Origin: Verrucomicrobiia bacterium
GTDB lineage: Bacteria; Verrucomicrobiota; Verrucomicrobiia; Limisphaerales; UBA8199
DNA: 51,512 nucleotides
Assembly: GCA_035946615.1 (NCBI GenBank)
Contig: DASYZB010000036.1
Span: forward strand, 1-51,512
Reading direction: 5' to 3'
The notes below the pieces were generated by a model. It was not told where the DNA came from. It saw nothing but the letters and a program-made list of their open reading frames with translations, and ran no database searches. Numbering within the stretch: the first letter of the stretch is position 1; every line of letters starts with the position of its first letter. The position numbers and the translations under genes were made by a program. Below, one piece after another: positions 25,844 through 28,138 of the stretch.

Positions 25844-26539
25844 TCATTGAGCCTTCCGGGCATCTGGTGATAGTTGCTTCACCCTGGTTTCAAACTCCGC
25901 CAGGCCAGTTTGAATCTCTTCCCTCGGCAGATTTCCGGCGCTCAGGGCCGCGTCGCTTTGGTTCTCCAGTCGCTGGTAAAAGGCAGTCCCAAAGTCCAGC
26001 AGACCGGGATGGTCCGGAGCCGCTTCGACGATGGCAAAAAGGGCATCCTCGGCCTTGGCGAATCCGCCGGTGCGTTCGTAGTGCTGCATCAGCAGGGCCT
26101 GTGTGGGGATTGGCAAGGGTGCATCCGCCAGCGCGCCCGCGAAGACATCCACTCCAGGCACAAACTCGGCGCGGTCGGACGGCTCGCCCAGCGCCAGGTC
26201 ATTGAGCAACAGGTGCAGGCCCTTCAAATAAAGGGCGCGGGCTTCTGCCGGGCGCTCCTGGCCAGTCGCGATGTCACCGGCTTCCTTCAACAGGGCGGTT
26301 ACCATGAGGGTTTTCTGACGCGCCGACTGGGTTGTTTCACCGCGAATCAGAAGCGCCAGCAGCTCAGTCTGGCTCAACTGAATCAGGCTCGAGGCATCTG
26401 ACTCCAGGAGCCTCCGGAACTCTGCATCGAGCGCAGCGGCTGCCTCGTCCCAGAGTTGGTCTTTCTTGAGCGCCTTCATCCTGGACAGGACCTCAAAAAA
26501 CTCCTGGAGCATTCGGAGAATATAATCGCGTCGAATCAA
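25844..26539 (-). CDS. DUF6483-family protein of unknown function
   Basis: This is a 231-aa soluble, mostly helical protein. Its start, MIRRDYILRMLQEFFEVLSR, resembles the DUF6483 family, whose members begin with the same DYI-R-MI pattern. The mid-region QERPAEARALYLKGLHLLLND looks TPR-like. The start codon would be TTG at 26539, chosen because the conserved N-terminus needs it. It stands alone, convergent with the MacB permease. Function is unknown. Confidence 0.7.
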   Translation of the reverse strand: MIRRDYILRMLQEFFEVLSRMKALKKDQLWDEAAAALDAEFRRLLESDASSLIQLSQTELLALLIRGETTQSARQKTLMVTALLKEAGDIATGQERPAEARALYLKGLHLLLNDLALGEPSDRAEFVPGVDVFAGALADAPLPIPTQALLMQHYERTGGFAKAEDALFAIVEAAPDHPGLLDFGTAFYQRLENQSDAALSAGNLPREEIQTGLAEFETRVKQLSPDARKAQ

Positions 26540-26875
26540 GCTCTGCCCCCCCGCTTACAGCTTTGGAACAATTTGAACTGGTTTCACCTTACGGGAGCCG
26601 AGCGCCGCCCGCGATAAAAAAGAAAGGAACCCAAACGGCAAAAACTCAATAAGACCAGCCGGGATACAGCTCCAAAGCTTCACTCCGGAGTCGTCAAGTA
26701 GGTAAAACCCTTACAAAACAAGGGTCAAACTACCCGAAACCAGCTCCCAACAATTATTTATTTGAATAAAGTTGAATCGGGGTTTGTCAGAATGAATAGT
26801 AAGCCAGAAAAAGAGGGGTTATGTCGGTGTTGCTTATAGGATGCTTTACTTAGGTTAATACCTATGAGAAACACG

Positions 26876-26904
26876 TTGACAGGAATTAGACTCAATGATT
26901 TATT
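26876..26904 (+). promoter_or_regulatory. Candidate sigma-70-type promoter of the small RNA
   Basis: A perfect -35 TTGACA (26876-26881) is followed after 17 bases by TTTATT (26899-26904), which matches four of six -10 positions. The upstream 250 bases are unusually AT-rich for this window. Transcription would start near 26910 and no protein gene follows on this strand, which supports a non-coding transcript. Confidence 0.55.
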
Positions 26905-26910
26905 GTAGGC

Positions 26911-27089
26911 AGATACGCCTTAGAATTTTTCGGGCATGGTTGAATTGTTCTTTGTCAGCCCAAAGTGATTTCGGGCCTGGTTCCGGGTACAGACCAGGGC
27001 CGATGTTCTCCGTAATCCTACTGTTGTACTTAATTCGAAAATTCCCCGGGCTCTTCGGTCACCCCCTGACTGACTAGCCCGGTTTTTTT
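26911..27089 (+). ncRNA. Probable structured small RNA, about 180 nt, family unknown
   Basis: Between a good promoter and a strong terminator there is no credible reading frame, but there is pairing. GAATTTT(T)CG at 26923-26932 pairs with CGAAAATTC at 27036-27044 over nine pairs with one bulged T, as a closing stem. An apical hairpin is formed by TCGG-G-CCTGGT (26971-26981) and ACCAGG-G-CCGA (26993-27003), ten pairs around one G-G mismatch. The central part is weakly paired. Size and layout (closing stem, open centre, apical hairpin) recall 6S RNA, but I recognise no diagnostic sequence and do not assign a family. The rest of the 549-base gap (26540-26875) is AT-rich and shows no gene. Confidence 0.55.
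27046..27089 (+). terminator. Strong intrinsic terminator of the small RNA
   Basis: CCGGGCT (27046-27052) pairs with AGCCCGG (27076-27082), and inside it CGGTCA pairs with TGACTG around a CCCCC loop. Seven T residues follow at 27083-27089. The orientation of the T-tract shows it ends plus-strand transcription. It overlaps the stop codon of the convergent ROK kinase gene. Confidence 0.85.
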
Positions 27090-28074
27090 ATTTTGTTTCA
27101 CGGCGCGCCAGCACGGCCGCTCCGGTGATGCCGGCGGTGTCTCCCAATTTGGAGGCGACAATCTCGACGCCTTTCATGGCGCCGGGCATGGCGTAATCTC
27201 TGGTGGTTTCAATGATGACGCTCATCATTTCATCAGCGAGTGCTTCGATGACTCCGCCCCCCAGGACCAGCACCTCCGGGTTGAGGATATTGACCAAGTT
27301 GGCCGTCGCCACGCCGATGTACTCGGCGGCCCCTTCCACAATTCGATCCACGAATTTATCTCCCCGGCGGATAGCCTTGCGCAGATCGCCGCTGCGGAGG
27401 TCTTCGAGGCCTTCGCCCAGCATCTCGGTGAGGATCGTCTTCTGGCCTTCCTTGATGCCGGCTTTGATTTGCTGGAAAATAGCGGTCCGGCTGGCCAGGG
27501 CCTCGAAACACCCTTTGTTGCCGCAACCGCATTTGGGGCCGTTGACCTCGATGACCATGTGGCCGACCTCGCCCGCCGTGTGGCCAAAACCGCTGTAGAG
27601 CTCCCCATTGATGATAACGCCCCCGCCAATACCGGTGCCGACGAAAATGCCCACCATGCTGCGCGGTTTGGATTTGAGTTCGGCGACGTAAACGCCCAAG
27701 GCGGCGATGTTGCAATCGTTCTCCACGAATACGGGGACCTCGAGGATTTTTTCGAGGCCCTTTTTCAAGGGAACATCCTTCCAGCCATCGAGGTTTGGGG
27801 CGAAGATGACGGTACCGGAGTCGAAATCGACGGCGCCGGGCGCGCCGATGCCCAGGCCGGCGACCTGCTTGAGGCTCAGGTCAGCCTCATCTATGGCGTC
27901 CTGAACGCAACGGGCAATCCGCTCGATGACCCGGTCCACTCCGCGCTGGGATTTGGTGCTAAGCTTGGACAACCCGACGCATTCAAGGGAGCGATTGAAA
28001 ACGCCGGTAAGGATTTTCGTCCCCCCCAGGTCAACGCCCACCAGGTACTCCGCTTTGGAGGTTGCTTCGGCCAT
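27088..28074 (-). CDS. ROK-family sugar kinase (glucokinase-like)
   Basis: This 328-aa kinase has the ROK phosphate motif near the start (YLVGVDLGGTKILTGVF), GIGAPGAVDFDSGTV, the catalytic aspartate in FVENDCNIAALG and the zinc motif CGCGNKGCFE that defines ROK kinases. It would phosphorylate a hexose, most likely glucose, with ATP in the cytoplasm. A TTG codon at 28077 precedes the ATG; I chose the ATG at 28074. It follows the two thymidylate-kinase-like genes on the same strand with a 64-base gap. Confidence 0.9.
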   Translation of the reverse strand: MAEATSKAEYLVGVDLGGTKILTGVFNRSLECVGLSKLSTKSQRGVDRVIERIARCVQDAIDEADLSLKQVAGLGIGAPGAVDFDSGTVIFAPNLDGWKDVPLKKGLEKILEVPVFVENDCNIAALGVYVAELKSKPRSMVGIFVGTGIGGGVIINGELYSGFGHTAGEVGHMVIEVNGPKCGCGNKGCFEALASRTAIFQQIKAGIKEGQKTILTEMLGEGLEDLRSGDLRKAIRRGDKFVDRIVEGAAEYIGVATANLVNILNPEVLVLGGGVIEALADEMMSVIIETTRDYAMPGAMKGVEIVASKLGDTAGITGAAVLARRETK

Positions 28075-28138
28075 CAAAATCCGCTTTCTGATTTCACGGT
28101 AAAGCTTGCCCGATTTGGCCGCGCCAATCCGCCGGCGA

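Follow-up and report, generated by a model that had tools for sequence, protein, structure and literature searches.

A proposed new family of stand-alone, pseudoknotted small RNA in the order Limisphaerales

6S RNA possesses a conserved closing stem around a central bubble. For the mycobacterial small RNA 6C, independence of chaperones is reportedly stated in the title of a 2019 article by Mai and colleagues. Mycobacterial B11 and 6C carry C-rich hairpin loops for which binding to G-rich tracts in mRNA has been proposed; B11 of M. abscessus represses a 5' UTR that contains six G, and either loop suffices (passages of PMC10470900). Another kind of element is boxA, the NusB-S10 site of rRNA leaders and suhB, whose gamma-proteobacterial consensus is GYTCTTTAANA in a survey that states, in part of its text, that non-coding RNAs were left unconsidered (PMC5725501). 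Furthermore, passages of PMC2864571 associate the glnA and Downstream-peptide RNAs, riboswitch candidates in front of genes, with genes for PII and glutamine synthetase.

The locus described here lies in a stretch of 51,512 nucleotides, hereafter the window, from a bacterium of the Limisphaerales, an order of Verrucomicrobiia. According to the ORF list of the window, 548 bases separate two minus-strand ORFs, 25844-26539 and 27088-28077, which Pfam assigns to a DUF6483 gene and a ROK-family gene, respectively. The initial annotation had measured this gap without a gene as 549 bases and had placed in it a small RNA gene, so far unannotated, for which a promoter, a fold and a terminator of its own were described; order-wide conservation, covariation and the non-coding character of the unit support this proposal. 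On the plus strand, 26911-27089 very probably encodes a non-coding RNA of about 180 bases that folds around a knotted core (Table 1). The 5' end of the RNA is predicted from the position of the -10 element, and at its 3' end two bases are shared with the stop codon of the ROK gene, which is convergent. Comparison among relatives shows a sigma-70-type promoter, a covarying hairpin and pseudoknot, a boxA-like segment, and a covarying terminator whose pentaloop consists of pyrimidines only. We call the RNA a new family of stand-alone structured small RNA with an unusual combination of parts. Its existence and fold are well supported, whereas its mechanism is something we infer.

Table 1. Positions in the window of the RNA and its associated elements
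Feature	Position	Strand	Evidence
Conserved element TTAATACCT, 12 bp before the -35	26855..26863	+	alignment of relatives
-35 TTGACA	26876..26881	+	sequence; TTGAC upstream in 89/97 homologues (~120 bases upstream, count without shuffle control)
Extended -10, TGA TTTATT (hexamer 26899-26904), 17-base spacer	26896..26904	+	sequence; TGATTWAWT-type in many relatives, others differ
Non-coding RNA, ~180 nt	26911..27089	+	homologues in family, class and order; not coding
Predicted 5' hairpin GGUUGA ... UCAGCC, whose loop holds most of the boxA-like segment	26938..26960	+	window fold 26911-26966
boxA-like segment UGUUCUUUGU	26946..26955	+	homologue motif; rRNA leaders of the order
Apical hairpin P2 (arms 26971-26981 / 26993-27003; 10 pairs, one G.G mismatch)	26971..27003	+	two-sided changes in all 10 pairs; 91.5% of cells paired over 61 sequences, the alignment having been fitted to P2
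Pseudoknot strand 1 in the P2 loop, GUACA	26987..26991	+	pairing and covariation
Conserved linker UUCUCCGUAAUCCUACUG, unpaired in the model	27006..27023	+	column conservation
Pseudoknot strand 2, UGUAC, 33 bases further on	27025..27029	+	pairing and covariation
Intrinsic terminator and U7 tract	27046..27089	+	z -6.81 against shuffles for the terminator alone; covariation
Terminator stems	27046-27052/27076-27082 and 27055-27061/27067-27073	+	pairing in homologues
C-rich terminator loop CCCCC	27062..27066	+	YCYYC in homologues

A DNA search found the RNA in 10 of the 13 genomes of the window's family, its own included, with 95% identity in the best short stretch; a second, weak match in the window's genome (C53, E 0.09) was taken as chance. 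A covariance model built from 8 family sequences (R1) matched in 46/286 genomes of the class, own counted, all of which belong to the window's order (52 of the sample). The second model (R2, from 81 sequences) matched in 36 of 40 chosen order genomes, including G142 and G261, both missed by R1, and therefore 48 of the 52 order genomes carry the RNA in all. Over larger samples, R2 matched in 261/320 genomes of the order, own counted, in 136 of the 154 order genomes with at least 90% completeness and at most 5% contamination, and in 2 of 387 phylum genomes, one being that of the window and the other likewise a member of the order. No match was found outside the order among the other 234 class genomes (R1) or the 387 phylum genomes (R2), absences that are soft because the class, phylum and 320-genome order searches used stricter filters. 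There is mostly one match per genome, and some genomes have two to four. As judged from these searches, the RNA is part of the common equipment of the Limisphaerales.

When named genomes were scanned with a pattern based on closer relatives, 58 stretches were returned, and the matched records are titled Verrucomicrobia, Verrucomicrobiota, Verrucomicrobiia, Verrucomicrobiales, 'subdivision 3', Limisphaerales, Pedosphaera or 'bacterium'. One assembly titled Akkermansia muciniphila holds two RNA copies (CAMCWI010000043.1, L155; CAMCWI010000022.1, L169), and its label is suspected to be wrong. At L061 (G155:C4:61907-62398), two tandem copies about 180 bp apart have divergent 5' halves and the same 3' end. 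The A3 alignment comprises 61 rows, including one chance partial match (L049, plus strand, 49 nt), and a 58-sequence set leaves out that row and the 5'-truncated L009 and L012. Removal of 16 duplicates and 3 partial rows from the 58 pattern loci left 39, with 97 homologues in all; these are related sequences, so that counts of them are not counts of independent cases. The A5 alignment (81 rows) omits L009, L011, L012, L049, L058 and L061 as well as 11 of the 39 new loci, hand-chosen and mostly near relatives of others. The search pattern behind 28 of its rows partly fixes the terminator sequence and the loop form, and does not include the pseudoknot or P2.

At gathering score, no Rfam 15 family matched the window. 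A permissive scan of the gap (26540-27110) returned only a weak match to ncS16 (13.2 bits, E 7.9), and ARAGORN found no tRNA or tmRNA in the window. A missing SRP RNA was rejected, given that a separate SRP RNA lies at C35. Keyword searches of the literature gave no earlier description of the RNA among the matches listed, and a word search of the main text of three structured-RNA surveys (PMC11109978, PMC8632094, PMC2864571) found no mention of Verrucomicrobia. The suggestion of a new class is supported by the silence of Rfam 15 together with order-wide conservation, covariation and lack of coding. The other suggestion, a divergent 6S RNA, is extremely improbable and was rejected. The two RNAs are alike in length and in being stand-alone genes, and folding of the window alone suggests a closing stem. 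However, RF00013 has no match in the gap up to E 10 (gathering 46.4 bits), and the same genome has a separate 6S RNA above gathering (G000:C81:21852-22032, 69.9 bits). A 6S match at E ≤0.01 was found in 50 of the 63 order genomes searched (45 over the cut-off), none of them at the place of the new RNA, which also differs from 6S by its pseudoknot. The nine-pair closing stem described between 26923-26932 and 27036-27044 is complementary in the window but not conserved in homologues, with 56.0% of cells paired over 81 homologues, a value reached by 418/500 shuffles. The impression of a 6S RNA came from this stem.

An ORF of 60 aa (26895-27077) is present in the window, which would allow a small protein gene. 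Against this, the homologues differ in length from the window copy across all three frames (20, 30 and 31 of 81 in one segment; 27, 24 and 30 in another), a stop falls within 30 codons of the ORF frame in 45/81 homologues, and the ORF has no Pfam match. The coding reading was rejected and has next to no probability. The whole strand folds at -59.7 kcal/mol, compared with -50.2 ± 3.9 kcal/mol in shuffles (z -2.42, 2/200 as good).

The apical hairpin P2, the other stem of the initial annotation, covaries over 61 sequences and stands as described, with ten pairs. By energy, the P2 region alone is not better than shuffles (z -0.70, 50/200 as good). P2 and the terminator together have 93.8% of cells paired and two-sided changes in 20 of 24 pairs over the 61 rows (none of 500 shuffles did as well, and slid controls stayed at or below 45.0%), in an alignment that was fitted to both and whose fit leans towards these helices. 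A 20-base inverted repeat with 80% complementarity links the left part of the gap (26731-26750) with the 5' arm of P2 (26970-26989), perhaps by chance.

A feature absent from the first description is the predicted pseudoknot between the P2 loop and a downstream strand, which is well supported by comparison of homologues. In the 61-row alignment, which was not fitted to these strands, 97.0% of cells are paired and all five pairs have two-sided changes. Slid controls reach at most 59.1%, no shuffle out of 500 is as high for pairing or covariation score, and one is as high for the number of two-sided pairs. The 81-row analysis, with pseudoknot columns set by hand, gave 95.6% of cells paired and 31 two-sided cells (slid controls at most 65.4%); 0/500 shuffles were as high for pairing and score, and 4/500 and 2/500 for the pair and type counts. 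Furthermore, in a structure-free scan of all column pairs the central pseudoknot pair ranks eighth, with only P2 and terminator pairs ahead, and some pairs outside any helix appear lower down. Different families, by eye, have different versions of the two strands (GUACA/UGUAC, AUACA/UGUAU, GUUCA/UGAAC, GUAAA/UUUAC, GUGCA/UGCAC, GAUUC/GGAUC). Next to the knot, AUUUC before P2 may form a U/A helix with GAAAU beyond the knot; this helix looks attractive but is a weak candidate, with 82.4% pairing vs 81.5% in shuffles (18/500 as high for pairing, 9/500 for covariation score).

The highly conserved unpaired bases in the linker and around the knot bear on the idea of a housekeeping RNA, namely a structured RNP that would bind a protein or the ribosome via knot and linker, with boxA only aiding transcription. 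The wide spread of the RNA in the order, mostly as one copy, speaks for this idea too, but the knot keeps its pairing rather than one sequence. A role of this kind is quite possible, though less likely than not.

The strong terminator with seven T had been recognised correctly (hairpin 27046-27082, T at 27083-27089). Pairing in its outer and inner stems is 99.8% and 93.7% of cells, respectively, and 72.7% in the one joining pair, and 10 of the 14 modelled pairs have two-sided changes. The five-base loop is YCYYC in 81/81 A5 rows, 28 of which came from a search pattern demanding that form, so that the fair count is 53/53. The conserved C-rich hairpin loop of C-rich-loop small RNAs is thus found in all rows not selected for it. 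The loop-closing pair varies over the 61 rows (A-U 54, U-A 4, G-U 1, other 2). A scan of 56 flanking loci found 166 other terminator-like hairpins, and YCYYC occurs in 0 of their 20 five-base loops; because of its mismatch rule, the scan passes over most terminators of the RNA itself. In addition, the terminator loop with the bases beside it is similar to the 3' end of 16S rRNA in the order (GGATCACCTCCTTT, 4/4).

The perfect TTGACA with its 17-base spacer was likewise confirmed, and the -10 boxes of the homologues vary in quality. A simple scanner flagged no plus-strand promoter or terminator in the window; the promoter was missed because its -10 has no A at position 2, and the terminator because its stem has internal mismatches. 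The case for both rests on conservation, that of the promoter in relatives and the covariation of hairpin and terminator over 61 sequences. Many relatives have CTWATACTT in place of the TTAATACCT of the window, and in many homologues CTWAT precedes the -35 while ATWAG sits within the spacer. Together these half-sites make an imperfect inverted repeat, which could be the site of a regulator. Among the 89 sequences with TTGAC, ATWAG occurs in 45 and TWATR in 60, with both in 41, compared with 2.5% and 19% in shuffles; the scoring took the best TTGAC per row and the first TTGAC in shuffles, which favours the observed figure somewhat.

Near the 5' end, TGNTCTTTGA is found with at most one mismatch in 79/97 homologues (2.5 expected from dinucleotide shuffles) and with at least three mismatches in 9/97; a few near matches, such as that of L055, sit off the usual place. 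Given their shared ancestry and the presence of the motif inside R1, this is conservation and not 79 independent cases of boxA, and recovery leans towards boxA-bearing homologues because R1 was built from such sequences. The GYTCTTT core is common with the gamma-proteobacterial consensus as given in part of the boxA survey (PMC5725501). It is also present in rRNA leaders of the order, where G[CT]TCTTTGA was found in 4 of 5 genomes searched, the window's genome (G000) being without a 16S match. What sets the new segment apart from the boxA of rRNA leaders and suhB is its place on a short RNA with an intrinsic terminator at the end. Furthermore, rRNA boxA has C or T at the second position of the core GNTCTTT, from which the A found in 29 of 85 homologues (T 38, A 29, C 16, G 2) departs; this A form is frequent in family f2 and occurs in others too. 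Upstream of 16S at L067 and L069, two promoters are seemingly present by eye, with a boxA-like segment after the first and in the leader. The predicted 5' hairpin has no energy support, since the fold of 26911-26966 has a z of -0.01, and the stem that holds or flanks the boxA-like segment in the window fold is, by eye, differently placed in relatives. A NusB gene was found in 10/10 genomes tested. Hfq (PF17209) was not found in the same number, 10/10, in a search with positive controls in 5/14, and dependence of the RNA on Hfq is not supported by this result.

The presence of the boxA-like segment in most homologues, with a core common to the rRNA-leader boxA of the order, raises the prospect of a decoy. 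The free RNA would bind NusB-S10 and tune rRNA antitermination or ribosome synthesis, possibly with nitrogen supply. Such a decoy would leave the pseudoknot and the terminator loop unexplained, and the A variant (29/85) may bind less well; it appears unlikely.

The gene glnB (PII, PF00543) lies upstream of the RNA and divergent from it in 21/96 loci, comprising 14 of 57 wide loci (L055 not among them) and 7 of 39 further loci, some of which are short-flanked; in the other 75, the window's included, no glnB was found. The gene glnA follows glnB in eight of the 21, one of them cut by a contig end, and L019 has glnA alone. One of the 21, L136, is a copy of lower similarity (70%) that lies further off. 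As the divergent arrangement is uniform and the loci that bear handles belong to six families (f1, f2, f6, f7, f12, f23), it is probably old. Many RNA-adjacent glnB genes (L003-L008, L010, L011, L016, L020 and others) have a TTGTTAGTATC-like element, resembling an extended -10, shortly before the start codon. By eye, other neighbours include dnaA upstream in some loci and an IleRS-like same-strand ORF downstream in several f2 loci.

Proximity to glnB would suit a cis element, that is, a leader, riboswitch or attenuator of a neighbouring gene, and PII is among the genes associated with the known glnA motif in the relevant text of PMC2864571. The glnA and Downstream-peptide RNAs, which are like the new RNA in this association, stand in front of genes, whereas the new RNA is divergent, has its own terminator and is Rfam-negative. 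Transcription runs away from glnB, the downstream gene in the window is convergent, a strong terminator ends the RNA, and the neighbours differ between lineages. In several f2 loci a same-strand ORF starts some 140-300 bases downstream of the RNA, so that there is some room for read-through there. On orientation, terminator and varied neighbours the cis element was judged very unlikely, with a little room left by these f2 ORFs.

The reading that we favour, tentatively, is an order-wide, Hfq-independent structured small RNA that would use boxA-bound Nus factors in its transcription and act in trans via its C-rich loop. Transcription would start about 35 nt before boxA, and NusB-S10 would bind boxA during transcription, as on rRNA leaders, and keep Rho off while the knot folds. 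The RNA would end at the intrinsic terminator, and the stable product would act in trans without Hfq, its YCYYC loop pairing with purine-rich sequences of Shine-Dalgarno type (GRRGR) in mRNAs or ribosome-binding sites. The C-rich hairpin loops of B11 and 6C offer a likeness, and B11 in particular a parallel for action in trans (passages of PMC10470900). The new RNA differs from these in having one C-rich loop, placed in the terminator, together with a pseudoknot and a boxA-like segment, and in a gap without an Rfam match. By eye, the start sites in the window are mostly without strong Shine-Dalgarno sequences, which counts against the loop mechanism, and the 21 glnB starts have no obvious GGAGG; this look for targets in the window and at glnB gave no clear partner. 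A link with nitrogen status, suggested by the recurrent place next to glnB-glnA, would be the least secure step.

In a further reading, which we consider quite improbable, the order-wide RNA would couple nitrogen status to ribosome production through an rRNA boxA carried as a free copy, which would capture NusB-S10, together with a loop that resembles an anti-Shine-Dalgarno sequence. If this coupling were true, a small RNA would imitate two rRNA control sites on one pseudoknotted scaffold.

For a group that has been little studied, the RNA is a concrete new molecule open to testing; it occurs in most of the order's sampled genomes and has no Rfam 15 match at threshold. The pattern-matched records of the order are metagenome-assembled, and none of 10 genomes tested gave an Hfq match. 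The pseudoknot can be probed at once because it is supported by covariation. If the boxA-like segment works as proposed in the favoured reading, the Limisphaerales would have a stand-alone small RNA that uses the rRNA antitermination machinery, a case which the boxA survey, in part of its text, states it left out (PMC5725501).
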